Shown here one piece after another: positions 4,546-38,453 of a stretch of 42,256 bases of DNA. Below the pieces are notes generated by a model, which was given only the letters and a program-made list of their open reading frames with translations, was not told where the DNA came from and did not search any database. The stretch is from a virus, in the IMG/VR virus record IMGVR_UViG_3300037157_000022, positions 1-42,256 of that record. One strand, written 5' to 3'. The position numbers were made by a program, and so were the translations under genes. Each line of letters opens with the position of its first letter. Positions within the stretch are counted from its first letter, which is position 1.

Positions 4546-5421
4546 GTGACGATCGCTGCCGGGATTCTTCGCTTGACGCATGGTGCGCACCAGCCCAACG
4601 GTGAGATGTGTGCGATGGAAGCCGCTGCGTGGATCGCGGGCGAGCCGTGGTCGGACCATCCGACGTGCGCGTCGCCCGTGATCGCGTCCTTCATGCGGTC
4701 GTGGAACGATTCGCTCTCGGACGACGATCGGCAGATGCTCGTCCCCTACGTGGTCCGGGTCGTCGGCACCGCGAACGGGGCCAAGATCGAGAACGCGCGC
4801 GCCTGGATGGCGACCGACTGCCTCGTGCGCACGCAGACACCGATGTGGCTCCGACTCGCGAAACTCCCCGATCAGGCTGCCGAACTCGAAGCGCTCATCC
4901 CGCTCACGAATACCGCGACCGCCCGCAAGGCCCAGCCTACGATCGAGGCGGCGCGCTCGCGCGCCGACGCTGCGTGGGCCGCTGCGGGGGCCGCTGCGGG
5001 GGCCGCTGCGTGGGCCGCTGCGGGGGCCGCTGCGTGGGCCGCTGGGAGGGCCGCTGGGAGGGCCGCTGCGTGGGCCGCTGCGGGGGCCGCTGCGTGGGCC
5101 GCTGCGGGGGCCGCTGCGGGGGCCGCTGCGTGGGCCGCTGGGAGGGCCGCTGGGAGGGCCGCTGCGTGGGACGCTGGGTGGGACGCTGCGGGGGCCGCTG
5201 CGTGGGCCGCTGCGTGGGCCGCTGCGGGGGCCGCTGCGGGGGCCGCTGCGAGGGACGCTGCGAGGGACGCTGCGTGGGACGCTGCGTGGGCCGCGCTCCG
5301 ACCTACGGTCGTCGTGCTCCAGCTGTCCGCACTGGAGCTGCTCGACCGGATGATCGACCTGCACCGCACCGATGTTCCGCTCATTGCCGAGCGTGTCGCG
5401 CGGCTCGGCGTATCGGCATGA
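4546..5421 (+). CDS. Phage protein with conserved N-terminal domain and Ala-rich tetrapeptide repeats
   Basis: 291 residues from the GTG that ends repeat copy B. Residues 1-110 look like a domain known from phages and actinobacteria without assigned function: a HGAHQPNGEMCAMEAAAWIA segment, then EPWSDHPTCASPVIASFM and an ND...DDD segment. Residues 141-248 are 27 tandem tetrapeptides of the type (A/D)AA(G/W/R), which would form a continuous Ala-rich helix with a bulky or charged residue every fourth position. Residues 250-291 are a non-repeated helical tail. The repeat-rich tail is typical for this family. Cell location and partner are unknown. Confidence 0.8.
   Translation: MTIAAGILRLTHGAHQPNGEMCAMEAAAWIAGEPWSDHPTCASPVIASFMRSWNDSLSDDDRQMLVPYVVRVVGTANGAKIENARAWMATDCLVRTQTPMWLRLAKLPDQAAELEALIPLTNTATARKAQPTIEAARSRADAAWAAAGAAAGAAAWAAAGAAAWAAGRAAGRAAAWAAAGAAAWAAAGAAAGAAAWAAGRAAGRAAAWDAGWDAAGAAAWAAAWAAAGAAAGAAARDAARDAAWDAAWAALRPTVVVLQLSALELLDRMIDLHRTDVPLIAERVARLGVSA
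4966..5289 (+). repeat. 27 tandem 12-bp units inside a gene
   Basis: The unit is GCCGCTGCGNGG with N = G, T or A, giving AAAG, AAAW or AAAR. Variants begin with GAC (Asp) or carry GGG in the third codon (AAGR). The reading frame is kept in all 27 units. Two blocks repeat as higher-order units: AAAW, AAGR, AAGR, AAAW occurs twice, near 5026-5073 and 5122-5169. This suggests expansion by slippage or unequal recombination under selection for the helix pattern. Confidence 0.95.
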
Positions 5422-6874: not shown

Positions 6875-7134
6875 CCGACCTCGCCACGATCCGCCAGCGG
6901 GCGCGCGAGCATCAGGATGATCTCGACCTCGCGCTCGTGTATCTGACACCGCAAGATCTTACGAAGCGCTGGCAGGTGTCGATCACGACCGTGAAGGCGA
7001 TCCCGCGCGACGAGCTGCCGTACAAGGAGATCGGGCGAGGGGTGCATCTCAAACGGCGACGCTACAACCCGCTGGATGTCGAGGCTTTCGAGAGCCGCGA
7101 CCGCGGCGGGTTGGCCCGCGAGCGATCCGCATGA
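6871..7134 (+). CDS. xis: Excisionase-like helix-turn-helix protein
   Basis: 87 residues. Residues 25-75 have the MerR/HTH_17 excisionase pattern: LTPQDLTKRWQVSITTVKAI, then a wing with YKEIGRGVHLKRR and YNPLDVEAF. Such proteins bend DNA next to the attachment site and turn the integrase toward excision. The ATGA overlap with the integrase gene strongly supports the role. A plain transcriptional regulator of the same fold cannot be excluded. Confidence 0.75.
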   Translation: MTDLATIRQRAREHQDDLDLALVYLTPQDLTKRWQVSITTVKAIPRDELPYKEIGRGVHLKRRRYNPLDVEAFESRDRGGLARERSA

Positions 7135-8390
7135 CGCTGCGTCGTGATCCCACCACGAAGAACTACAGCGCCGACATCCGCGATCGCTCGTTCGGCCGTA
7201 TCCATCTCTCGCTCAAGAGCGACAAGAAGTCCGTCGCGACCGAGCGCTACGCGGCGCTCCGCGCACTCATCCGCGAGGGCGACCCGACGCTCGTCAACGA
7301 CATTCGGCGCCGGCGCCTCAACATCGAGGCCGTCACCCGGATGCACATCGAGCGTCGGCCATTCGCCGAGCTCCGGTCCGCGACCGCATGGCCCACCGTG
7401 GGCGCGGCGCGCGACGCATACCTGGCGTGGATCGAGGAACATCCCCGGCGCTCGGCGAAGACGCTCTTCACGGTGCGCTCAGAGATCAAATCCGCAGTGG
7501 ACTTTTTCGACGCCCGCACGCCGCTCACGCAAATCACCCATGATCGGGTGCGGGACTTCCGCCGCGCGCTCGAAGCCCGCGGCCTCAAACCCACCACGGT
7601 GCGGCTCCATCTCTCGCGGCTCGGCGCGCTATTCCGCTGGTGCCAGCGGCAGGAGACGCGGGATGCTGCCCAGGCGCGACGCCCGGCGACCACGCTCTAT
7701 AGTCCGGTCGATCCCGAGGCGATTCCCGACCGTGCCGCTGGCCGCGTGCGCTTTCTCTCCCAGGACGAGGCCGAGCGATTGGTCGCGGCCACGCCCGACG
7801 CGCTACAGCTCGCGGTGGCGCTGGGATTGCTGGCTGGCCTCCGCGCCGGCGAAGTACTGTCGCTCCGGCCGCCGCCGCACGACATCGACCTCACGCTCGG
7901 GTTGATCCTCGTGCAGCCCAAGGAAGGGTGGCGTCCGAAGAGCAAGGCGTCCCAGCGCGAGGTGCCGATCGCCGATGCGCTGCGCCCGATTCTGGACCGG
8001 CACCTCGCGTCCTACGCGAGCGACCGGTGGCTCTTCCCGTCGCGCGCATTGGGTGGCCGCGGCGCCGGCCACGCGAACGCCATCTCGGCGGACACTTTGC
8101 AGCTCGAATTCCGGCGCATCGTGACGGCGGCCGGCATGGTCGCGGGCCGTGACGACCCGCTCGGCGTCACGTTCCACACGCTGCGCCACACCTTCGCGTC
8201 GTGGCTCACGATGGGCGGCGTCGATCTCTTTACCGGCGCGCGGCTCATGGGCCACGCCTCGACGAAGGAGATGGAGACGGTGTACGGTCACCTGGCGCCC
8301 GAGCATCGGAAGCGGGCTGTCGGACTCCTCAACGACCAGCTCGCGTCGGCGTTCAAGCCCTATGGCGTGGCGGGTGGGGTGTCGGCATGA
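7131..8390 (+). CDS. int: Tyrosine site-specific recombinase (phage integrase)
   Basis: 419 residues, a normal length. Residues 88-175 form the SAM-like core-binding domain. The catalytic domain begins near residue 205 and shows all expected residues: R238 in GLLAGLRAGE, K270 or K272 in the beta hairpin, H349 and R352 in HTLRHTFASW, H375 in LMGHAS, and nucleophile Y385 in METVYGHL. It integrates the phage at attB and, with Xis, excises it. It is translated from an ATGA overlap with xis, an arrangement that couples excisionase to integrase expression. It runs in the same direction as the early genes. Confidence 0.95.
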   Translation: MTLRRDPTTKNYSADIRDRSFGRIHLSLKSDKKSVATERYAALRALIREGDPTLVNDIRRRRLNIEAVTRMHIERRPFAELRSATAWPTVGAARDAYLAWIEEHPRRSAKTLFTVRSEIKSAVDFFDARTPLTQITHDRVRDFRRALEARGLKPTTVRLHLSRLGALFRWCQRQETRDAAQARRPATTLYSPVDPEAIPDRAAGRVRFLSQDEAERLVAATPDALQLAVALGLLAGLRAGEVLSLRPPPHDIDLTLGLILVQPKEGWRPKSKASQREVPIADALRPILDRHLASYASDRWLFPSRALGGRGAGHANAISADTLQLEFRRIVTAAGMVAGRDDPLGVTFHTLRHTFASWLTMGGVDLFTGARLMGHASTKEMETVYGHLAPEHRKRAVGLLNDQLASAFKPYGVAGGVSA

Positions 8391-13468: not shown

Positions 13469-13773
13469 TCATCATCCCCTCGTTCGATCCCGACGCGGTG
13501 TGCGTGAAGTGCGGATGCACCGACGTGGCTGTCCGTACCATCACCACGAAGACCTTCAGCCCACTCCCTGACAGCAGATACGGCGTACGAGAACCCGACC
13601 CGTGGCCGACGCGCTTCGCCTTCGAGACAGAGGTGCTCCCGCGTAGGTGCGAACGGTGCGGCCACGCGTGGGACGAGGCACCGCTCGACGCGGCGAAGGG
13701 TCAGGTTCACCACACACACGTCCACACGGTCGAGGCCGTGCCGAGAAATCCTGCGCCTACAGCCGCGCCATGA
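13465..13773 (+). CDS. Small zinc-binding protein
   Basis: 102 residues. The ATG at 13465 lies five bases after GGAGG and overlaps the upstream TGA, so it is preferred to the ATG at 13453. CVKCGCTD near residue 13 and CERCGHAW near residue 62 form two knuckles. Several His residues (VHHTHVHT) follow. The stop overlaps the glycosyltransferase start, so co-expression with it is likely. Confidence 0.7.
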   Translation: MIIIPSFDPDAVCVKCGCTDVAVRTITTKTFSPLPDSRYGVREPDPWPTRFAFETEVLPRRCERCGHAWDEAPLDAAKGQVHHTHVHTVEAVPRNPAPTAAP

Positions 13774-14480
13774 CCACGCCACGCGTCGCGATTATCGTCC
13801 CGGCGTTCAACGCGGAGCCGTGGGTCGGGGAGTGCATCCAGTCGATCGGCGCGCAAACGATGCCGGACTTCGAGTGCGTGATCGTGGACGACACCTCGAC
13901 CGACCACACGATTACTGCCGCCGACATCGCCTGCCGGGCCGATCGCTCCGACTTGCGATTCAGGATCATCCGGGTACGCCACGGTGGTGTTGCCCGCGCG
14001 ATCAACAAAGGCGTCCTCCTCACGCTCGCCCGATGGCTCATGGTCTGCGGCGCGGACGATGTCCTCGATCGCACCTATTGCGAGGTCCTGCTCGCCGCGC
14101 TCGACGCCAATCCCGGCGCGCGCGTGGCGTATTCGACCCTCGCTGAGTTCGGCGACGGCGCGTCCGGCGCATGGCCGGTCAAGCCGTATGCGCCAGGGCT
14201 CCTCGCCACCGAGAACTGCATCCCGGGCGTCGCGATCCACGCCCGCGCGCTCTACGACGCCGTGGGCGGCTTCCCCGAGGACATGCCCCAGGGCGGCGAG
14301 GACTGGCTCTATTGGCTCCGGGCCGAGCAGCGCGGGCTCCTCGACCCGCCACCCGTGTGGGTGCGCGACCCGCTGTACCACTACCGGCGGCACGCGGCCT
14401 CGCTGTCGTCGCGGAGCATCTACCCCAACATCGAGGCGATCCGCGCCCGGATCGCGGCGCTCGCACGGGGCGAGGCGTGA
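13770..14480 (+). CDS. GT2-type glycosyltransferase
   Basis: 236 residues from an ATGA junction. The GT-A fold is clear: VAIIVPAFNAEPWVGECIQS at residues 6-25, the nucleotide-sugar aspartates D40-D41, the DxD-like ADD at 95-97, and GGEDW at 175-179 with the acceptor-side acidic residue. It transfers a sugar from a nucleotide donor; donor and acceptor cannot be read from the sequence. No membrane anchor is visible, so it is cytosolic. It lies in the early small-gene region, far from the second glycosyltransferase at 34133. It could modify phage protein, phage DNA or host surface precursors. Confidence 0.85.
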   Translation: MTTPRVAIIVPAFNAEPWVGECIQSIGAQTMPDFECVIVDDTSTDHTITAADIACRADRSDLRFRIIRVRHGGVARAINKGVLLTLARWLMVCGADDVLDRTYCEVLLAALDANPGARVAYSTLAEFGDGASGAWPVKPYAPGLLATENCIPGVAIHARALYDAVGGFPEDMPQGGEDWLYWLRAEQRGLLDPPPVWVRDPLYHYRRHAASLSSRSIYPNIEAIRARIAALARGEA

Positions 14481-18400: not shown

Positions 18401-18721
18401 ATGGCATCCCCACGACTATCCGGCACGGTGAAGTGGTTCAATGACGAGAAAGGTTACGGCTTCATCGTACGCGACGACGGCGAGCGAGACGTGTTCGTCC
18501 ACTTCTCCGCCATCCAGATGCCCGGCCAACCCCACCGGCACCGGAAACTCGACGAGCACGACAAGGTGGAATTCGACCTCGAGGAGACCGAGAAGGGCCT
18601 CCAGGCCGCGAACGTCCTCAAGATCGAGATGCCGGCAGAATCGACCAACCTCCGGAGTGCCGCGGATCCGGCCGTATTGGATGAGCTGCTTCGGGCTGAC
18701 GACGTGGCCAGACTCAGGTAG
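18401..18721 (+). CDS. Cold-shock domain protein with unusual C-terminal tail
   Basis: 106 residues, AGAGGA ribosome binding site. Residues 5-77 are a complete CspA-type cold-shock domain: [15 protein letters not shown] with RNP1 (KGYGFI), RNP2 VFVHFS at residues 31-36, and the LQAANVL end. It binds single-stranded RNA or DNA and may act as an RNA chaperone or antiterminator before the late genes. Residues 81-103 lie outside the usual domain. They are encoded opposite a sequence that translates, on the other strand, as a piece of terminase large subunit (see the repeat at 18641-18709). Confidence 0.9.
18641..18709 (-). repeat. Inverted, diverged copy of a terminase large-subunit segment
   Basis: Read on the - strand, these 69 bases align without gaps to 20400-20468 in the terminase gene, with 50 of 69 bases identical by hand count. 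In the terminase frame the - strand reads [17 protein letters not shown] and TPEVGR, against GRIINPKQLIQYDWIRA and ATEVDR in terminase. Thirteen of 23 residues are identical, including seven in a row. Several changes are third-position and silent (CCC/CCG, AAA/AAG, CAG/CAA). Confidence 0.85.
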
Positions 18722-23495: not shown

Positions 23496-25115
23496 ATGGG
23501 CGACGTGGATGTCGATCTCATCGTGGTGCCACCGCCGGTCGTTGCGCTCGACCCGACCATCGGCATACCTGGCACTCCCGGCTCGCCCGGCACTGATGGC
23601 ACAGACGGTACCAATGGGACGAATGGAGCGCCCGGCTCGCAATGGTACCAGGGCTCGGGGGCGCCGAGCACGCTGCACAGCAACGGAGATCTCTACCTCA
23701 ACACCACGACCGAGGATCTATACCAACAGGCAGCCGGTGCGTGGGGCTCGCCGATCACGAACATCAAAGGTGCCACGGGCGGCACTGGCGCCACGGGGAG
23801 CGCGGGCGCAACAGGCCCCACGGGTGCCACCGGCGCGACAGGCAGCGCCGGAACGAATGGCGCCAATGGAACGAACGGCGCGACGTGGCGGGAGGGGAGC
23901 GGCGCCCCGAGCAATGCGCTGGGCGTAAACGGCGACTTCTATCTCGATGTCGTCGCGTTCAACGTCTATCAGCGCGCCTCGGGCACCTACTCGATCATCT
24001 GCAACATCGAAGGCGCGACGGGCGCGACCGGATCGGCAGGCAGTACAGGCGCCACTGGAAGCGCGGGAGCAACAGGAGCCACCGGCCCTACGGGGGCGAC
24101 TGGCGCAACAGGCGCCACTGGCCCGTCGCTCGATACCGTCACATCGATCTCGGACACGGATACCACGGTTGCGGCCAGTCCCGCCGTCGATCTCGACGTT
24201 GCGTATGCGACGCTGACAACGAAGCGGACGATCACGTTGCCCACCACGGTCAGCATCGGGCGGAAGATCCGGGCGATCGACCAGTCAGGGAATTGCAGCG
24301 CGTCGCTCTGCCTCGATATGCTGCCCGGTGGCACGGACACGTTGAACGGGGTGAATGAGCGGTGGACCGTGTTGCAGACCGCGTACGGCGCGGCGACCGC
24401 GTACCGCACCGCGGCCGGCGTCTGGGTGGTACCGGGCGCGGTCGCGGACCCGGTTAGCGGCGTCCCTGCGGACATTGCCACGTTCATCACGGCGCTTGGC
24501 GTCACGCCGCTGGCCTTCTGGGATGCGCGGTATGCGCTCACCAGCGCGAATTGGACGGATGCGCTCAATGGGTACGTCGCTGCGTATACCGGGGGATCTC
24601 CAACGATCTCCGGGTCAGGCGCGACCGCGCAGGCCGCGTTCACCGCTTCACAAATGGCGGGTATGGCGTCTGCGCTCGTCGCGGCCCCGGCGACCGGCAT
24701 CAGCATCCTCTACGTGGGTTCGCTGGCGGCCAACAGCTTCGGCCCCTACGCCACCTGGGCCGCACCCAGCACTGGGTATTGGGGGGCCGGGGCGAACACG
24801 AGCCTTCTGTGCGCGGCCACGTATGGGTCCATCTCGCAGGCCGCACTGTCGGCGGTCGCGGCCAGTACGACGGTGCGCGCGTGGGCCGTGTCGCTCTCGT
24901 GGGCTGGGGTGGGCGAGATCACTGTGGACGCCGGGGTCCAGGCCAGTAATAGCCCCTTGCTCATAGAGACACCAACCGGCGACGGCAAGCTCGTTGTGGC
25001 GGCCGGTCAAGCGGCTCAGAACATACAGGCCGTGATCTATCTGCCCGGACTCTACACGTCGGGGATGATGTCCACGTTCCTCTCGTGGGCCGGGACGTAC
25101 CACACGTATGTCTGA
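23496..25115 (+). CDS. Collagen-like fibre protein
   Basis: 539 residues. Residues 1-22 form a short N-terminal segment (VDVDLIVVPPPVVALDPTIG) shared with the gene at 25130. Gly-X-Y stretches at 23-47, 92-129 and 173-210 would form a collagen triple helix. Between them lie two copies of a small beta module (GSGAPS...NGD(L/F)YL). The C-terminal half is beta-rich and may be a trimerisation or lectin-like head. A trimeric fibre is likely. Its place between portal and MuF-like genes suggests it may sit on the head, not the tail. Confidence 0.8.
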   Translation: MGDVDVDLIVVPPPVVALDPTIGIPGTPGSPGTDGTDGTNGTNGAPGSQWYQGSGAPSTLHSNGDLYLNTTTEDLYQQAAGAWGSPITNIKGATGGTGATGSAGATGPTGATGATGSAGTNGANGTNGATWREGSGAPSNALGVNGDFYLDVVAFNVYQRASGTYSIICNIEGATGATGSAGSTGATGSAGATGATGPTGATGATGATGPSLDTVTSISDTDTTVAASPAVDLDVAYATLTTKRTITLPTTVSIGRKIRAIDQSGNCSASLCLDMLPGGTDTLNGVNERWTVLQTAYGAATAYRTAAGVWVVPGAVADPVSGVPADIATFITALGVTPLAFWDARYALTSANWTDALNGYVAAYTGGSPTISGSGATAQAAFTASQMAGMASALVAAPATGISILYVGSLAANSFGPYATWAAPSTGYWGAGANTSLLCAATYGSISQAALSAVAASTTVRAWAVSLSWAGVGEITVDAGVQASNSPLLIETPTGDGKLVVAAGQAAQNIQAVIYLPGLYTSGMMSTFLSWAGTYHTYV

Positions 25116-25129
25116 GCCGCCATCCTAAC

Positions 25130-25525
25130 ATGGCCCCGTCGCCCGTCTACCTCACGCCGATCGCACCGCCCGTGGTCGTGCTCACTCCAGGCGGCGCGGG
25201 GCCGGTGGATCTCGATGTCATCCCGCCGACCAGTGTGGCGCTCGATCCCACGCTCGGCACGCTGGGCAATCAAGGCATCCAAGGTGTGCCAGGCCCACCC
25301 GGCAGCGGCGGTGATCTCAATAGCGTCTTCACGCAGTCGATCGCGAGCGCGACGTGGATCATCCCCGTACCCGCGCCGTTTATCAGCGTCGGCAAAGTGC
25401 CGTCGGTCACGGTCGTCGATTCGGCCGGCACGGTGGTCCTTGGCTCCGTCGCGCACAACGCGTCGCTCAACCAACTCACGATTTCCTTTTCGGCGCCGTT
25501 TTCGGGTTCTGCATTTTTGAACTGA
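25130..25525 (+). CDS. Short collagen-like fibre protein
   Basis: 131 residues from the ATG at 25130. The N-terminal segment PVDLDVIPPTSVALDPTLG matches that of the preceding fibre, followed by a short Gly-X-Y piece (NQGIQGVPGPPG). The rest is a beta-rich domain of about 70 residues. It may be a companion fibre using the same docking site. Confidence 0.7.
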   Translation: MAPSPVYLTPIAPPVVVLTPGGAGPVDLDVIPPTSVALDPTLGTLGNQGIQGVPGPPGSGGDLNSVFTQSIASATWIIPVPAPFISVGKVPSVTVVDSAGTVVLGSVAHNASLNQLTISFSAPFSGSAFLN

Positions 25526-25554
25526 TGCCCTCTCTCACACACTAGGACACTCCG

Positions 25555-27309
25555 ATGGCGATCCCAGTTCTCAATAACCTCGATCTCACACTGAACCAGC
25601 TCTTGAACGCGCTGGCGCAAGTGTTGGGCACCGATCCGGGCTCGCCGACGCAGGCGCAGTTCTGGTTCAACTCCACGTCGAACCGCAATAAGCACTACGA
25701 CGGCACGACGGTACAAACCGACGCGCAGCTCAGTGATTCGCTCGACAAGTTCGCCGCACCCGTCGCGAACGTCCCGTGGGGATCGCAGCGCATCACGACG
25801 CTCGCTGACCCGGTGAACGCGCAGGACGCAGCCACAAAGAATTACGTGGACTCCGCGATCATGGGGATCGACCCCCACGGCTCCGTCAAGTACATGACCG
25901 CCGCCGCGCTCCCGGCCTACACCTACGCCAATGGCACTGCAGGCGTCGGCGCGACGATCACCGCCAACGTGCACGCGGTGTGGACGATTGACGGCCAGTC
26001 GCTAACCGTGGGCGACCGGGTGCTGGTCACCCAGGGCGCGGCCGGCAGCGATAACGGCATTTACACCGTCACCACCGTTGGCACTGGCAGCGTCTTCACC
26101 GTCTTGACCCGCGCGACGGATTTCAACACCGCGACGCTCGACGTCCCCGGCTCGATTGTGCAGGGCGCGTTCGTGTTCGTGGAAACCGGAACTACGGAAG
26201 GCGCCACGGGCTGGATCGAGACGGGCGCTGGCCCGTTCACCGTGGGCACGACCGCCATCACCTGGACGCAACTCGGCGCGGCCACGTCCTACTCAGCGGG
26301 CAGCGGCATCACGTTCGCCGGGACGGTCATCTCGGCGCACGTCGATGGCGTCACGATCACGACCAACGGCAGTGGCCAGTTGATCGTGGATTCGTCCGCG
26401 ACGGCCAGCCAGACGCTGCTATCGGCCGGCACAACAGGCACGGCGCCCACGTGGGGCGCGCTCCCACTCGGGACCGCCGCCGCCGTATCCGGTCTGCTAC
26501 CGCCAGTGCGCGGTGGTACCGGCATCGACACGAGTGCGGCGGCCAACGGGAAGCTGCTGATCGGGAACGGCAGCGGGCTCTCGCTCGCACTCGTCACCGC
26601 TGGCCCGCAAATCGGCCTCCCGGTCGGCGCTGGCACGCTCGAAATCGACAACCTGACGCCGTTCAAGCCCAACGCCACGGTCGTCGCGACCACCAATGTC
26701 ACGATCTCCAATCCCGCCACAGCGGTCTTCGACGGTGTGACGGTCACGAGCGGCCAGCGGATGCTGCTGACCGGGCAGACCACGACATCGCAGAACGGCT
26801 TGTGGGTGTTCAACGGATCGTCAAGCGCGCTGACGCGGCCGACGGATTACGCGGCGGCCAGCACGACGATGGCGTTTGCCGATGTCATGGTGGAAATCGA
26901 CTCGGGCACCGTGGGCGCCGGCACCGCATGGCGTCTCACCACTACGGGCGCGATCACCGTGGACACTACGGCCACGGCGTGGACGCAATGGGTGGTCAAC
27001 GTCGGCGCGAATGGCGTCGTGGGCGTATTGCCGATCGCGAATGGTGGCACGGCCAGCACGTCGGCCTCGACCGCACGCGCGGCGCTCGGCGCGACGACCA
27101 AGTACGCGGTCAACGTGCCGAGCGGTTCCACGTCCGCCGTCATCACGCACAATCTCGGCACGACCGACGTCCACGTGCAGGTGTGGGAACTCACCGGGAG
27201 TCTCCGTCAGGTCAACGTCGAAGTGGATAACACGAGCCCGAACTCGGTGACGCTCGTGTTCGCGGTCGCGCCGACGTCAGGCCAGTACCGCTGCGTGGTG
27301 ATCGGCTAA
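25555..27309 (+). CDS. Phage fibre protein with repeated beta domain
   Basis: 584 residues. The first 105 residues match tail fibre N-termini: AQFWFNSTSNRNKHYDG, then RITTLADPVNAQDAATKNYV. A domain of about 110 residues (pattern: VGDRVLV, then NGIYTV, then LTRATD and WTQLG) occurs at nt 25926-26290 and again in diverged form at 26680-27005. The C-terminus has a NGGTAST turn motif and a beta head. Probably a receptor-binding or decorative fibre. Confidence 0.8.
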   Translation: MAIPVLNNLDLTLNQLLNALAQVLGTDPGSPTQAQFWFNSTSNRNKHYDGTTVQTDAQLSDSLDKFAAPVANVPWGSQRITTLADPVNAQDAATKNYVDSAIMGIDPHGSVKYMTAAALPAYTYANGTAGVGATITANVHAVWTIDGQSLTVGDRVLVTQGAAGSDNGIYTVTTVGTGSVFTVLTRATDFNTATLDVPGSIVQGAFVFVETGTTEGATGWIETGAGPFTVGTTAITWTQLGAATSYSAGSGITFAGTVISAHVDGVTITTNGSGQLIVDSSATASQTLLSAGTTGTAPTWGALPLGTAAAVSGLLPPVRGGTGIDTSAAANGKLLIGNGSGLSLALVTAGPQIGLPVGAGTLEIDNLTPFKPNATVVATTNVTISNPATAVFDGVTVTSGQRMLLTGQTTTSQNGLWVFNGSSSALTRPTDYAAASTTMAFADVMVEIDSGTVGAGTAWRLTTTGAITVDTTATAWTQWVVNVGANGVVGVLPIANGGTASTSASTARAALGATTKYAVNVPSGSTSAVITHNLGTTDVHVQVWELTGSLRQVNVEVDNTSPNSVTLVFAVAPTSGQYRCVVIG

Positions 27310-27312
27310 CTC

Positions 27313-28398
27313 ATGGCAATCGCGGCAGACTCCCCGAGCGAACAACTGACGCTCGGGGTCAGCATTGCGCAGGGCTCAACGCTCACCGCGGCGCAATGTA
27401 AAGGCACGTTCATCCAGGTCACCGGCAACACCGGGGGCGGCGTGCTGGCGCTCCCGGCGCTCGCGGCCAGTCTCGGGTGCGTGATCCAATACACCGGCAC
27501 CGGCACGCTCCAGATGCAGACGAACGGCGGCGCGGGCAATGTCGGGGGCGTCCTCGCCACGGGCGGTTGCCTCTGGCTCGAATGCGATGGCACGGTGTGG
27601 AACGTCATCGCGTTCGCGGCCGCCGCCCCCACCACACAAGCGGCAGGCGACAACTCGACCGCTCCGGCGACCGACGCCTTCGTGATGAACGCGAACCCCA
27701 TTGTGGCAACCGTGGTCGCGACCGCTGCCTTGAGCCCGGCGAACACCTATAGCGCCGGCGTCCTCACGGCCAGCGCCACCGGAACGCTCACTGTCGATGG
27801 ACATCTCACGGCGGTGGGCGACTACGTGCTGGTGACGGCGGAATCCGCCGGGGCGAACGACGGCCTGTACATCGTCACGACGGCCGGCGCATCCGGTGTG
27901 TCCTATGTCCTAAAGCGCGCCAACAATGCGACGACGGCCGCGCAACTCAACCTCGGACTCAGCGTTGCAGTCGGTAGTGTGGGGACAACCTACGGTGGCA
28001 CCGTCTGGACGATGCCACCGGGAGCATACACAGTCGGCACGACCACACTGACGTTCACACGGGCGAACTACGCGCACGTCATTACCACCCTCAGCGGGAC
28101 CGGCGCGAAGACCATCACCGCGCTCCTCGCCTCCGCCTCCGCTAGGCTCTACCGCGTCATGGCGAGTGCGGTCGGTAAAGGGACCGTCGCCGTCACGGTC
28201 ACGATTTCGTGGACCGATGAATTCGGGAACGCTGAAGCGTGGGCCTTTACGGCCAGCTTCACCTCGACCGGCCAGAGTCAATCGGAAGTTATCCTGATCC
28301 TGCCCACCGCCGCGACGGCGATCAACGCGACCGTCGCGGTCACTTCGGGCACGGCCGCCGACGTCGGCTGGCACTTCGCGCTTGAAGCCCTACCGTGA
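27313..28398 (+). CDS. Fibre-like protein sharing a domain with its neighbour
   Basis: 361 residues, beginning three bases after the previous stop. Residues 1-135 are a beta-rich Gly/Ala/Thr region. Nt 27733-28070 carry the third copy of the VGDYVLV...GLYIVTT...LKRAN domain found twice in the preceding gene. The C-terminal 100 residues (VITTLSGTGAKTITALLASA, then a beta sandwich) may be a carbohydrate-binding head. Confidence 0.7.
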   Translation: MAIAADSPSEQLTLGVSIAQGSTLTAAQCKGTFIQVTGNTGGGVLALPALAASLGCVIQYTGTGTLQMQTNGGAGNVGGVLATGGCLWLECDGTVWNVIAFAAAAPTTQAAGDNSTAPATDAFVMNANPIVATVVATAALSPANTYSAGVLTASATGTLTVDGHLTAVGDYVLVTAESAGANDGLYIVTTAGASGVSYVLKRANNATTAAQLNLGLSVAVGSVGTTYGGTVWTMPPGAYTVGTTTLTFTRANYAHVITTLSGTGAKTITALLASASARLYRVMASAVGKGTVAVTVTISWTDEFGNAEAWAFTASFTSTGQSQSEVILILPTAATAINATVAVTSGTAADVGWHFALEALP

Positions 28399-31811: not shown

Positions 31812-32891
31812 ATGCCGCTCAATACGGGCGAATCCACACTTCAAGACCTGATCGCGGCAAAGAATCTCTCTTTCGCCAAGTTCGGGATCGACAACATCGA
31901 ACGCATCCTGGCCTACGACCAGGCCGCGTGGAACCTGATGGTCTCGGAGCTCATGACCGAGCTCTGTGAGATCTCGACCGATCAGCAGCGGATCTACGGC
32001 GCCTCGACTGATGGCGTCCTCACCGAAGTGGACGAACTCGGGCGCGCCACTACGCAGAAGCCGGCGCAAGGCTCGCAGGTCGCCTTCCCGCTCCGGCACT
32101 TCCAGGGCAATCTCGGGTGGACACGGGAGTGGTGGAAGAACCACACCCCGGCCGACTTGGCGCTCGTCGTCATGGCGGTACAGAAAGCTCACCTCCGGAA
32201 GATCTATGGCGCGGTCGGCCAGGCGATCTTCGCGGCCTCGGACTACACGTTCGCCGACTACACCAAGCTCAATATTTCCTTCAGCATCAAGCGGTTCGTC
32301 AACGCGGACGGCTCCGCGATCCCCGATGGCCCGCACGGTGAGGTGTTCAACCCGAACACCCACACGCATTACACGGCGCTCAACGGCCTGACGGCCGCGG
32401 CGGTGAACGCCCTCGGCGCCAATGTGCTGGAGCACAAGCTCTCGGCCAACGTCAAGATTGCGTTCAACGCGAACGACATCCAGACGGTGCAAGGGCTGAC
32501 CGGATTCCTCGGACTCGTGGATCCCCGCATCACGCTGGAGTACGGTACCTCGCAGGTCCCGACCCAGCGGCTGGACATCACGCAGTTGAATGATCGCTTG
32601 GTCGGCATCATGTCGCCCTATGCGATCTGGGTGAAGCCGTGGGTACCGCAAGGCTACGCCTTCGCGTACGACGCACAGTCGGCCGAGAAGCCGATGGTCA
32701 TGCGGATCGACCCGGGCACCGGCGGCCCGGACCTCCAGACGGTGCAGAAGATCGACGCCAACCCGCTCCACATGGAGTACATGGAATCGTACTTCGGGCT
32801 GGGCGCCTACTGCCGCACCGCGGGCGCTGCGCTGTTCTTCGCCACCGGCGGCGGCACGACCTGGGTCGACGCGACCATCACCGGCTACTAA
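31812..32891 (+). CDS. Major capsid protein
   Basis: 359 residues from the ATG at 31812. Pattern and place fit HK97-fold capsid proteins without a protease domain: an N-terminal helix (LAAKNLSFAKFGIDNIER type), a long central spine helix region and a C-terminal P-domain with DANPLHMEYMESYFGLGAY. The 110 bases before it (31702-31811) are C/A-rich and gene-free. Hairpins flank the gene on both sides, a layout that can set high, separate expression. Confidence 0.8.
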   Translation: MPLNTGESTLQDLIAAKNLSFAKFGIDNIERILAYDQAAWNLMVSELMTELCEISTDQQRIYGASTDGVLTEVDELGRATTQKPAQGSQVAFPLRHFQGNLGWTREWWKNHTPADLALVVMAVQKAHLRKIYGAVGQAIFAASDYTFADYTKLNISFSIKRFVNADGSAIPDGPHGEVFNPNTHTHYTALNGLTAAAVNALGANVLEHKLSANVKIAFNANDIQTVQGLTGFLGLVDPRITLEYGTSQVPTQRLDITQLNDRLVGIMSPYAIWVKPWVPQGYAFAYDAQSAEKPMVMRIDPGTGGPDLQTVQKIDANPLHMEYMESYFGLGAYCRTAGAALFFATGGGTTWVDATITGY

Positions 32892-32960: not shown

Positions 32961-33467
32961 ATGGCAACCCAGCCCACCCCCGGATCGACCGCTGCGATCG
33001 CGCCGACCGCGTCGAACACCGTGATCACGACGGCGCCGCCCGTTGCGGTTCGGAGACGGCCCGTCAGCGGGCGGCAATTCGAGCACGCTAAGTCCCCGAA
33101 GCCCGACGCCGATTCGACCAACGCACTGGTCTCGAGGACAATGTCCGACGGCAAGGGCAATCGGTTTCAGGAAGACGCGCCCGTACCAGAGACGCACTTC
33201 GGTGGCTTGTACCGGAACGCCGCGGGCCAGCTCGTCAACGCGAACGGGATCTCCCTCGAGGACGACGGCTCGCAGGATGAGCCGATCACGCTCAAGACCA
33301 TCGTCGCCGAGATCGGGTCGGACAACCCGCTCGCCCAGCGGCTGATCGCGAAAGAGTCCGCAAAGAATCGGAAGGCTGGCGTCAGCGTGTCCGTCGATGA
33401 TGCGCCAGAGCTCGAGGGCGACGCGGCCGATCGCGCGCGCTTCGAGAGGACCAAGGCGAAGAGATAG
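32961..33467 (+). CDS. Hypothetical head-region protein
   Basis: 168 residues from the ATG at 32961. The N-terminus (residues 1-55) is Thr/Pro/Ala-rich and disordered. The centre (FGGLYRNAAGQLVNANGISL) and the helical C-terminus (LAQRLIAKESAKNRK) carry no family match. Its position just after the capsid gene suggests an assembly role. Confidence 0.6.
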   Translation: MATQPTPGSTAAIAPTASNTVITTAPPVAVRRRPVSGRQFEHAKSPKPDADSTNALVSRTMSDGKGNRFQEDAPVPETHFGGLYRNAAGQLVNANGISLEDDGSQDEPITLKTIVAEIGSDNPLAQRLIAKESAKNRKAGVSVSVDDAPELEGDAADRARFERTKAKR

Positions 33468-33611: not shown

Positions 33612-34136
33612 ATGCCGCTGCCGGACATCGATCTCTGCAAATCGTACCTCCGGGTCGAGACCGACGTCGATGATCTCCTGATCGGTGAGGAGATCCGCGA
33701 GGCGATTGCGTTCATCGAGACCTATATCGGCCGCGCGATCTTGGATCCGAATAGCACCCGGGTGTTCGGTCCCGTGCGCACCGCGTACCCGACGGTGGGG
33801 AGTTTCCGTGTCGGCGATACCGCGCCCAACCAGAACGTGTACGCCGAGGGCCTGGATGAGTTAGGTCGCGAGACCAATGTGCCGCCCGCGACCGCGATCA
33901 CGGGGCCGCTCGCACTGAGCACACTGCCCGATTACGCCACGCGCTGGGAGCCGCTCCTGTCGCGGGCGATCCTCGATATGGTGGCGGAACTCCACTCGCA
34001 CCGCGACCCGATGGTCACCAACGAGTCCGCAGGCGGCGGCGTGTCCGTCACACGCGGCCGCTTGGTGCACGGGCTCCCGCCCCGCGTGCGGGCGATGCTC
34101 AAGCCCGTGATGGCGTTGTCGTCGATCCATCCATGA
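33612..34136 (+). CDS. Head-tail connector (gp6-like adaptor)
   Basis: 174 residues. Residues 5-40 (DIDLCKSYLRVETDVDDLLI, then GEEIREAIAFIETYIGR) match the start of the Phage_connect_1/HK97 gp6 family, whose ring sits below the portal. A further helix (WEPLLSRAILDMVAELHSHR) is at 115-135. The ATGA overlap leads into the glycosyltransferase gene. Confidence 0.75.
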   Translation: MPLPDIDLCKSYLRVETDVDDLLIGEEIREAIAFIETYIGRAILDPNSTRVFGPVRTAYPTVGSFRVGDTAPNQNVYAEGLDELGRETNVPPATAITGPLALSTLPDYATRWEPLLSRAILDMVAELHSHRDPMVTNESAGGGVSVTRGRLVHGLPPRVRAMLKPVMALSSIHP

Positions 34137-35443
34137 GCGACATCAATTGGTGGGGCCGACCGGGTCGGATCTTCCGCGCCGAGTTGCTCGCGCGGGATCC
34201 TGACTCGCCGCAGCCCTTCATCGGCCATGAGACGCCGGGCGCGCTCCGGATCCTCCAGGGCACGTCCTACGACCCGGGCTCCGCGGCGTACCGATTCCAC
34301 TCGGCGATCAACGAGACCACACCGCACGCGTCGATCTTCGCGCGGCTGGGCGATACGAACCCCTACACGCACTTCCGCCAGATGGATTGCGGGTCGCCCG
34401 AGTACGAAGCCGCAGGTGCCGAAGCCGATGTCATCCACTGCCACATGGACTACCTGGCCCGCGATCTTCTGTGGGGGCCGACGCGCGATGACGTCGTGCT
34501 GGTCCGCCATTACCACGGCTCAGCGGCCACGGTGGCACCGGACGGGTCGATCACCGTGAACGCGCCCGACGCGCTCGCCCGGCTCATGCAACTCGAGCAG
34601 GACCGCGCGCTCGGCGCCGTCATCTGCGGCGCGCGGCTCGACCACCTCCTGCTCGCCCCGGACGTGCACTGGCTCCCGATGACACAGCCCGTGCATCGCT
34701 ACGCGGCGCTCCGCGCGCAGCATGGCCCGCGGCATCCCTTCGGCACGCGCCGGCCGATGCGCGTCGGGCACTCGCCGACCGAGCCCAAGCTCAAAGGCAG
34801 CGCGGTACTGGAGCATGTGATCGGCGAGCTCCGCGCGGCCGGCGTGCCGATTGAGTTCGTGCGCATCGAGAAACTGCCGCACGGCGAGGCGCTGGCGGTG
34901 AAAGCGACGTGCGACGTCGTGTTCGATTCCTTCTTCCTCGGGCTCCAGGGCTCGGGGTTGGAAGCGGGCGCGATGGGGATCCCGGTGATTGCGGGGGATA
35001 CACGGGTCGCGCGGTTGCACGTGGAGCGATTCGGCGAGTGCCCCTACGTGTTCGCGGACGACGCCGAGGAGCTCGAGAACGCGCTGGTGGGGCTCATGGA
35101 CGCCGAGGCGTATGCGTTGGCCGCGGCGCGGATCCGTCGCTTCGTCTGGCGCCATCACAGCTACGAGGCCGTGGCGCGGAAGTACCTGACGATCCTGGCC
35201 GGTGCGGCGCCCGCATTGGCGCGCCGGATCGCGCTTGCGGGCGAGACCACGGCCGACCCGGCGCACTTCGATGAGGGGATCAACGAGCGGCCCCGCGAGT
35301 GGCCCGGCGTGGACCGTGCTCCTAAGCCGGCGGCGGATCCGCCGAAAAGTGCGTGGCCGCCGAGCATGACCGTGCCGGTGTTCGACAAGGACAAGCCGAA
35401 GCCCAAGCCGCCAGCGGACGACGCGTGGGGCGACGCCCGATGA
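34133..35443 (+). CDS. GT-B type glycosyltransferase inside the connector cassette
   Basis: 436 residues. A GT4-like pattern is visible: ADVIHCHMDY at residues 98-107, VGHSPTEPKLKGS at 211-223 at the start of the second Rossmann domain, and DVVFDSFFLGLQGSGLEAGA with MGIPVI at 261-286, where E277 is the likely nucleotide-sugar contact. A helical end (YEAVARKYLTILAG) is followed by a Pro/Lys-rich tail from residue 390. No membrane segment. ATGA overlaps on both sides couple it to connector genes, suggesting it modifies virion proteins during assembly; the acceptor is unknown. Confidence 0.8.
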   Translation: MSDINWWGRPGRIFRAELLARDPDSPQPFIGHETPGALRILQGTSYDPGSAAYRFHSAINETTPHASIFARLGDTNPYTHFRQMDCGSPEYEAAGAEADVIHCHMDYLARDLLWGPTRDDVVLVRHYHGSAATVAPDGSITVNAPDALARLMQLEQDRALGAVICGARLDHLLLAPDVHWLPMTQPVHRYAALRAQHGPRHPFGTRRPMRVGHSPTEPKLKGSAVLEHVIGELRAAGVPIEFVRIEKLPHGEALAVKATCDVVFDSFFLGLQGSGLEAGAMGIPVIAGDTRVARLHVERFGECPYVFADDAEELENALVGLMDAEAYALAAARIRRFVWRHHSYEAVARKYLTILAGAAPALARRIALAGETTADPAHFDEGINERPREWPGVDRAPKPAADPPKSAWPPSMTVPVFDKDKPKPKPPADDAWGDAR

Positions 35444-35583
35444 GCGTCTCCAACGCCGCGCCGCATCTGACGCTCGCGGAGCACATCGCGACGGGTGTGT
35501 TTGCCGCGCTGTACCTGGCCGCTTATATCGCGAATTGCATCGCGCACTTCGTCCGCCGCGGATCACCGAAGGCGGAGCCATGA
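35440..35583 (+). CDS. 47-residue membrane peptide
   Basis: It starts in an ATGA overlap with the glycosyltransferase gene and overlaps the next gene. Residues 15-37 (HIATGVFAALYLAAYIANCI) span a membrane, followed by a basic tail (HFVRRGSPK). It might anchor the glycosyltransferase at the membrane, which is inference. Confidence 0.55.
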   Translation: MSVSNAAPHLTLAEHIATGVFAALYLAAYIANCIAHFVRRGSPKAEP

Positions 35584-36870: not shown

Positions 36871-37274
36871 TGCCTGTCCGCTTCACGATGCACCTGCCTC
36901 GGGCGCGGACCGCGATTCGCGCGGGTGTGGACGCGTTCCTCCGCGCTGCGGCCGACGCGTACCGCTCGGCGCTGCTCACGAAGTACGGCGAGCACCGGGG
37001 CGGCTACACCTCGGGCGAGTACGCCACGGGCGCCACGGTGCAGTCGATTCAGGCGAGCGAGCCGTACGCCGCGGATTCCGGTGGCCGTGCGATCGCGGTG
37101 TTCACGGACGACGTGGTCGCGGTCTACTGGACGCTCGGCTTCCAGCACGCGGGCGCGAACGGCCAGTACCACCGCGTCGATCACTGGTCGCCCGCGATGC
37201 TCGACTCGGCCGACGATCAATTCACCCGGGGCGCCAAGGCCGCGCGCGAGGCGTTCGATGCGAGCGGCCAATGA
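36870..37274 (+). CDS. HK97 gp10-like tail component
   Basis: 134 residues from a TGATG junction. Helix VDAFLRAAADAYRSALLTKY, the TSGEYATGATVQSIQ segment, and the strand VAVYWTLGFQHAGANGQYHR follow the HK97 gp10 family, a neck or tail-completion protein. The end is basic and Ala-rich. Order between head-closure and tail terminator agrees. Confidence 0.65.
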   Translation: MPVRFTMHLPRARTAIRAGVDAFLRAAADAYRSALLTKYGEHRGGYTSGEYATGATVQSIQASEPYAADSGGRAIAVFTDDVVAVYWTLGFQHAGANGQYHRVDHWSPAMLDSADDQFTRGAKAAREAFDASGQ

Positions 37275-37865: not shown

Positions 37866-38453
37866 ATGGCTACCCAGCCTCCGTTCAATGCCTACACGGC
37901 GAACATGCCCAATACGATCGGGCTGGATACTGCCGTGTTCTACATCGGGGCGACGCCGCTCGGCGTCACCGATGGGGGCCAGAAGTTCGACCCGAAGAAG
38001 ACGTTCCTCAACATCGCGTTTGACGGCAAACGCGCCCCGATCGCCGGCCTCGATCGCGTCACCAAATTCGAGTCGGAGATCACCGCCAAGTTCCTGCAGT
38101 GCGACATCTCCGCCTTCCTGCAGTACGAGGCGGGCTCGGTGTCGTCCTCTGGGTCCTCCGGCAACGTGATCATGATCCAGACCATGCAGTCGGCGTCGCA
38201 GCTCATCCCGGTGGGCTCGCTCCTCGCGAACCTGCGGTGCGCCTGGAAGCTCGGCAACACGAGCGGTTCGGGCTTCGTGTACAAGCAGGTCCGGTTCTAC
38301 CGCGCCCTGGTCACCAAGTACACGGCCGCGTGGAAGGACAACGGCTCGATGGAGATCGACGCGACGTTCGCGGCACGCCTGGACCTCACGGTCGCGGGCC
38401 TCACCACGGACAGCGCGCCGTACCTCATCGAAGACCTCTCCTCGTTCCCGTAA
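37866..38453 (+). CDS. Major tail (tube) protein
   Basis: 195 residues from the ATG at 37866, with AGGAC upstream. Pattern MPNTIGLDTAVFYIGATPLG, then GGQKFDPKKTFLNIAFDGKR, then a beta-sandwich region fits siphovirus tail tube proteins. Its place just before the frameshifted chaperone genes and tape measure gene is the standard one. Confidence 0.75.
   Translation: MATQPPFNAYTANMPNTIGLDTAVFYIGATPLGVTDGGQKFDPKKTFLNIAFDGKRAPIAGLDRVTKFESEITAKFLQCDISAFLQYEAGSVSSSGSSGNVIMIQTMQSASQLIPVGSLLANLRCAWKLGNTSGSGFVYKQVRFYRALVTKYTAAWKDNGSMEIDATFAARLDLTVAGLTTDSAPYLIEDLSSFP

Follow-up and report, generated by a model that had tools for sequence, protein, structure and literature searches.

The glycosyltransferase (GT) gene that lies among the connector genes of a 42256-base IMG/VR virus record, the whole of which was analysed and will be referred to as the window, is a recurrent occupant of the slot between the major capsid protein (MCP) and head-tail adaptor genes in related phages and no stray insertion. 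In relatives with an HK97-type capsid, the presence of the GT covaries with a single serine at the C-terminus of the MCP. On balance, we favour the reading that a connector-coupled, GT4-like enzyme glycosylates a virion protein and that the acceptor in the relatives is this MCP serine.

In the window, the adaptor, the GT, a 47-residue peptide and a head-completion-like protein (HCP) gene follow each other with ATGA overlaps at 34133 (adaptor/GT), 35440 (GT/membrane peptide) and 35580 (membrane peptide/HCP gene), just as the initial annotation had described for both sides of the GT; a fourth ATGA junction lies further downstream, at 37271 (Table 1). The gp6-like nature proposed for the adaptor was confirmed by a Pfam match above the cut-off. 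As for the proposed head-closure gene, a Phage_HCP-like gene is indeed present at the expected place, but its match is weak and stays below the cut-off. With profiles grown from the window genes, adaptor homologues were detected in 79 of 84 loci and HCP homologues in 69, the latter adjoining the adaptor in most. The 47-residue peptide shows one probable membrane helix (best 19-residue Kyte-Doolittle mean 1.82; a single, marginal-to-good segment) and codon-position GC contents of 0.62/0.52/0.79 like those of the neighbouring genes. It matched no family above the cut-off in profile searches and, among the 84 loci, was seen in no contig other than the window and its sibling; it is not conserved and probably incidental. 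The slot between MCP and adaptor, where relatives carry a fusion of a DUF7210-like domain and the GT, is occupied in the window by a 168-aa protein, for which no homologue was found among the 84 loci except in the sibling. An open frame of 353 aa antisense to the GT probably has no coding role and is a shadow ORF due to the high GC content.

Table 1: Features of the window, with positions, strands and the evidence for each.
Feature	Position	Strand	Evidence
ORF with long AAAWAAG/AAGRAAG-type repeats	4546..5421	+	no Pfam match
Tyrosine integrase	7131..8390	+	PF00589 E 1.3e-21
Second glycosyltransferase, GT2 type, early region	13770..14480	+	PF00535 E 2.6e-24
Cold-shock protein	18401..18721	+	PF00313 E 2e-26
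Collagen-like fibre	23496..25115	+	PF01391 E 1.7e-14
Fibre-type genes: collagen-like fibre, 584-aa head-decoration-like protein, related 361-aa protein	23496..28398	+	phrog_2647 E 3e-73 (584-aa protein)
Major capsid protein (MCP)	31812..32891	+	phrog_3990 E 2e-14
168-aa protein, function unknown	32961..33467	+	no Pfam match
gp6-like head-tail adaptor, 174 aa	33612..34136	+	PF05135 22.3 bits (cut-off 21.2); phrog_442 E 4e-8
GT-B glycosyltransferase (predicted fold), 436 aa	34133..35443	+	AlphaFold2 model, VIA-align Z 22; weak Pfam matches
353-aa open frame, probably a shadow ORF	34520..35581	-	
47-aa peptide, one probable membrane helix (19-mer VFAALYLAAYIANCIAHFV)	35440..35583	+	hydropathy 1.82, coding-like codon GC
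Head-completion-like protein, 120 aa	35580..35942	+	Phage_HCP E 0.005, below cut-off
Major tail protein (MTP), C-terminus EDLSSFP	37866..38453	+	phrog_885 E 7e-7

Sequence comparison of the window GT with Pfam yielded sub-threshold scores only, namely 20.6 bits for PF13524 (cut-off 25) and 18.8 bits for PF13692 (cut-off 27), and the cut-offs of the GT4 families Glyco_trans_1_2 and Glyco_trans_1_4 were reached neither by the window GT nor by any of the eight relatives checked. An AlphaFold2 model (pLDDT 79.2, pTM 0.78) was compared with solved structures, and its best matches were tied between T4 AGT (Z 22.4), PimA (22.3) and BshA (22.0); the 50 matches listed span Z 22.4 to 18.5 over 264 to 302 aligned residues and are all glycosyltransferases or close kin. 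With Z values of about 22 to solved structures, the model is clearly of the GT-B fold, and the original assignment to the GT-B enzymes is right despite the low sequence scores. According to the model, the catalytic fold spans about residues 35–362, and residues 374–436 are mostly disordered; this last part is missing from most aligned relatives. Searching a PDB set with a profile of 34 members gave the GT4 enzyme PglA as the sole match (E 0.004). Among these 34 diverse members 48 columns are invariant, including H128-G129, K221-G222 and E277, and E277 aligns with the second Glu of the GT4 motif EX7E in PglA. Where this motif has its first Glu, the family carries an invariant Leu (L269, position -8), and for this reason the enzyme is, judged by its sequence, better called GT4-like than a GT4 member.

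The GT was carried by all 84 different loci of the first searches, which comprised scans giving 30 loci, 80 kept of 100, and one MAG contig. The relatives found by the scans are about 36–49% identical. The presence in all loci, together with strong conservation (the 48 invariant columns among 34 members), shows that the gene is no chance ORF. The median dN/dS was 0.435 over 255 pairs with dS of 0.1–1.2, most of them very divergent, and 0.209 for the closest pair shown, L003-L033, which is the sole informative one; no weight is placed on these values. In every locus that reaches an adaptor gene (79 of 79) the GT occurs together with it, and the remaining five loci end 0–6 bases past the GT. The GT lies upstream of the adaptor in 78 of the 79; it lies downstream only in the sibling of the window, a contig 99.97% identical to it over 13308 bases. 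One small gene separates the two in L032 and L044. A possible adaptor start codon is located between -20 and +25 bases from the GT stop codon in 73 of the 79, so that tight coupling is the rule, and the distances of the two proteins are correlated (r 0.875, reached in none of 2000 permutations, 34 sequences). The initial annotation had called the position of the GT unusual, which has to be narrowed: in the window, only its place downstream of the adaptor is unusual. In L029 (304–1624) the GT frame is broken, with matches in two frames, because of a faulty assembly or because the gene is decaying.

Concerning cultured phages, tblastn searches of INPHARED with three GTs, the window MCP, the MTP of a relative, a lone DUF7210-like protein and an adaptor found no counterpart. 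For the window terminase there were matches in 124 records, each of them at less than 60% identity. The one locus found in a bacterial genome, a Burkholderiales MAG contig, may be phage sequence that was binned with the bacterium and therefore gives no host. Nothing we found ties the phage to actinobacteria, to whose phages the initial annotation had looked for precedent, and the GTs of the mycobacteriophage Che8 belong to other families.

The GT-bearing relatives possess an HK97-type MCP (phrog_10) and a maturation protease, as judged from the proteins of L033. The window MCP is not detectably related to it, and a scan with the window MCP itself found only the sibling contig. The GT thus follows the adaptor and tail genes from one type of capsid to another, and what is inferred from the MCP serine below does not carry over to the window.

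In 70 of the 84 loci the GT open frame also holds an N-terminal DUF7210-like domain, which is lacking in the window GT. The model of such a fusion is confident (pLDDT 88.3). Similarity to DUF7210 (PF23843, cut-off 27 bits) stays below the cut-off throughout: a match was seen in three of the 29 members searched, the best score was 20.8 bits for a lone protein (L203), and the best E value among fused proteins was 4.4e-4. We found no literature mention of DUF7210. Scans seeded with the tail protein and the adaptor yielded a further 129 loci, in 77 of which the GT lies upstream of the adaptor and in 30 of which the adaptor occurs without a GT; the rest consisted of 16 loci without an adaptor, five that were too short and the sibling of the window. 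Three kinds of site were seen among the 30 GT-less loci, namely a DUF7210-like ORF that stands alone and overlaps the start of the adaptor gene (17 loci), a capsid gene that stops 23 bases before the adaptor (8 loci) and gaps of 75–96 bases in the slot (5 loci). When 12 GT-less records, some of them fragments, were searched whole, the GT profile found no match. In a tree built from the adaptors of 46 clusters, presence of the GT has to change four times, each time forced by well supported branches. One GT-bearing locus (L094, 1–840) is nested there in a clade of lone DUF7210-like loci. Its contig begins within the GT gene and does not include the MCP, and it carries a 4522-base insert after the HCP gene that is absent from its GT-less neighbours; regain of the whole module by recombination is possible.

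The loci with and without the GT differ at the very end of the MCP. In the presence of the GT the protein ends in DVPASS, DVPAS, DNTASA, DDATS, DEPAS and the like, in its absence in DEPAA, DEPGA, GDEE, GDEA, DDAVTP or DDVVTA, and one of the final three residues is a serine in 120 of 127 GT-bearing loci compared to none of 30 GT-less loci. With nine deep or window-type loci excluded, residue differences were then scored column by column in seven structural proteins (478+207+145+216+189+166+285 columns). Within the MCP, no column but that of the C-terminal serine differed by at least 0.8 for any residue (57 of 58 distinct GT-bearing sequences, 0 of 20 GT-less ones); outside the MCP, this value was reached in five columns of the MTP and one of the HCP, so that a single column of this kind is not exceptional. 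The serine is missing in six deep GT-bearing clusters (L003, L033, L044, L034, L035 and L032) and in the unclustered L036, which has the GT as well. In a tree of the MCP, with its tail removed, and the adaptor, serine and GT agreed in all 38 rows of one clade, within which the GT label is forced to change three times.

The serine had been noticed by inspecting the first data, before the second set was drawn. The prediction was written down, and new scans with two capsid proteins were then performed. These gave 106 new loci, among them 80 with a junction identical to a known one and 19 new distinct junctions. All 15 decidable new junctions fitted the prediction (three with GT and serine, 12 with neither), and the other four were cut too short to decide. 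After addition of nine of these new loci to an MCP-only tree, one HK97-type clade comprised 48 rows and was concordant throughout, with serine in all 28 GT-bearing rows and in none of the 20 GT-less rows; over the whole tree the GT label changes five times by parsimony, and three of these changes are forced. We found no literature on a C-terminal serine in glycosylated phage capsids.

The covariation might be explained by gene overlap and phylogeny, without any function of the residue, and the GT may then still act on another virion protein; we consider this explanation rather unlikely, though it deserves serious attention. The 3′ end of the MCP gene overlaps the start of the DUF7210-like/GT gene (GATG) in most lineages examined, so that deletion of the latter can replace the MCP tail mechanically. 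The tails of lineages with an empty slot (GDEE, DDAVTP, DEAV, LN) do look replaced, and independent GT losses are few, about three to five. The cleanest event is the loss that left a lone DUF7210-like gene, in which DEPAS gave way to DEPAA or DEPGA, and here the overlap is kept and the serine is nevertheless absent. Between DEPAS, as found in the relative L046, and DEPAA, the exchange of Ser (TCN) for Ala (GCN) alters position 1 of the MCP codon and is not forced by the downstream gene, since only the wobble position of that frame changes. Furthermore, L045 and L062 keep the serine without a GATG overlap. The serine codons are TCG (20), AGC (4), TCT (3) and TCC (2), and the use of both TCN (25 in total) and AGC codons speaks for selection on the residue.

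The remaining explanations concern the GT itself. Phage GTs are often annotated as enzymes modifying host cell-envelope glycans, in serotype conversion or superinfection exclusion, and the gene might merely ride in the late operon; the GT2 gene of the window with its weak GtrB-like PHROG matches and the integrase, which makes lysogeny possible, would fit such a function. However, coupling to adaptor translation would make the enzyme late, when modification of the host helps little, neither the GT nor the 47-aa peptide nor the flanking genes gave a GtrA or multi-TM Gtr-type match, and the GT covaries with a capsid residue, so that an action on host glycans seems improbable. Still less credible is a catalytically dead GT fold that has a structural or sugar-binding role in the neck, with the DUF7210-GT fusion being packaged: in its favour are the absence of the first EX7E Glu and the fact that relatives encode the fused domain by itself at the same place, but the active-site-like residues are invariant in 34 diverse members, and GT losses leave the neck gene order unchanged. 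To DNA glucosylation in the manner of T4 AGT we attach hardly any weight. Although T4 AGT heads the list of fold matches, level with PimA and BshA, the GT sits in the virion operon, close relatives without it exist, and PF00303 (thymidylate synthase/hydroxymethylase type) was found in none of 11 records, which are possibly fragments.

A similar difference was observed at the end of the MTP, where 44 of 72 GT-bearing loci, but none of 14 GT-less loci, have a serine among the final three residues. GT-bearing phages often end in TSV, ASV or TTV, phages with a lone DUF7210-like gene in TAV, NAV or DAV (for example, L055 versus L145). The association is weaker than that of the MCP, and the MTP C-terminus is a possible second site.

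According to the reading that we prefer, virion glycosylation, an active GT-B enzyme of the retaining type (GT4-like) would be produced together with the connector proteins through coupled translation and would add a sugar to a virion protein during late assembly. This acceptor would most likely be the C-terminal serine of the MCP in the HK97-type relatives. There the enzyme is encoded directly after the MCP, usually fused to the DUF7210-like domain, which may dock it on the assembling virion. The module seems to be optional, enzyme and acceptor serine having presumably been lost together several times. The window appears to carry the same enzyme without the docking domain, one gene further downstream and next to an unrelated capsid, and for these three reasons the acceptor there would be another virion protein, such as the tail tube ending in LSSFP, whose MTP shares 33–38% identity with those of relatives, or the collagen-like fibre. 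The initial proposal of virion glycosylation is thus partly supported, in its direction, by the linkage to the assembly module and the MCP serine of the HK97-type relatives. The purpose might be shielding of the virion or altered adsorption. More tentatively, this widespread, uncultured HK97-type group might possess a self-contained unit of a DUF7210-like docking domain and a GT-B enzyme, whose gene overlaps the capsid gene end. Such a unit would glycosylate each capsid subunit at its C-terminal serine, would be gained and lost together with its acceptor and could move to unrelated capsids with a new substrate; so extended a picture is conceivable, but we would not rely on it.

Two further candidates were rejected. 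Collagen or fibre proteins were considered as a general substrate, with the interval between HCP and tail-neck genes, which fibre-type genes fill where inspected, taken as a measure in the measurable clusters. This interval exceeds 1 kb in 21 of 25 GT-bearing clusters and in none of five with a lone DUF7210-like gene, but it does so also in all four with an empty slot, and the association is therefore not clean. Collagen runs occurred in nine loci, eight of them with the GT in the same locus, too few GT-less loci being of comparable length for a judgement. A second GT of the GT2 type as obligate partner was dismissed as well, PF00535 being above the cut-off in six of 15 GT-bearing and none of 12 GT-less records (three sub-threshold); the figures are suggestive of a partnership that is not general. 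The closest relative of the window GT (L032, 49%) carries both a GT2 gene and a collagen-like stretch (E 2.5e-4, below the cut-off).

Some other features of the window were recorded (Table 1). Its fibre-type genes are situated between the portal and a Mu-F-like gene, which is an unusual place, and the cold-shock gene directly precedes the terminase genes. The repeat-containing frame may owe its length to the repeats, or it may encode an alanine-rich protein of an unusual kind. Since a tyrosine integrase is encoded, the phage is probably temperate.

In the literature consulted, glycosylation of virions by enzymes that phages encode is documented for mycobacteriophages. The GT family described here shows no detectable similarity to the Che8 GTs and is tied to phages, for which we found no cultured relative, by synteny, fusion and the covariation of one capsid residue. 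An annotation guess has in this way become a falsifiable prediction about a single residue, with natural loss mutants as controls. Like Che8 gp108-110 and Corndog gp36-38, the enzyme is a phage-encoded GT. The Corndog GT genes gp36-38 belong to the virion operon, with the portal gene on one side and the protease gene on the other (PMC4351075), and PMC12619734, reporting on Freeman et al. (2023), locates mycobacteriophage glycans at the C-terminal ends of the capsid and tail-tube proteins. The Che8 proteins are a GT2 with a methyltransferase, a GT2-like and a GT25 enzyme, in contrast to the GT-B family here, and hhalign comparison of this family with gp108, gp109 and gp110 gave probabilities below 1% each. 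Unlike the mycobacteriophage GTs, the predicted GT-B enzyme lies in the MCP-adaptor slot of the relatives and is fused there to a DUF7210-like domain. With PimA, BshA and PglA it shares the GT-B fold (Z 20–22 over about 295 residues) and the second EX7E Glu, E277, but it differs from GT4 enzymes in having the invariant Leu at the first Glu and sequence scores below the Pfam cut-offs. It resembles T4 AGT in fold (Z 22.4), although the gene is part of the virion module and no PF00303-type base-modification gene was found in 11 records. The lone DUF7210-like protein recalls Mu gp35, a small protein also encoded between the MCP and the head-tail adaptor; however, Mu gp35 matches FluMu_N and not DUF7210, and the Mu slot has no GT. 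The kind of system is already known, and what is new is the enzyme family, its fusion, its slot and the paired loss of the enzyme and its putative acceptor.
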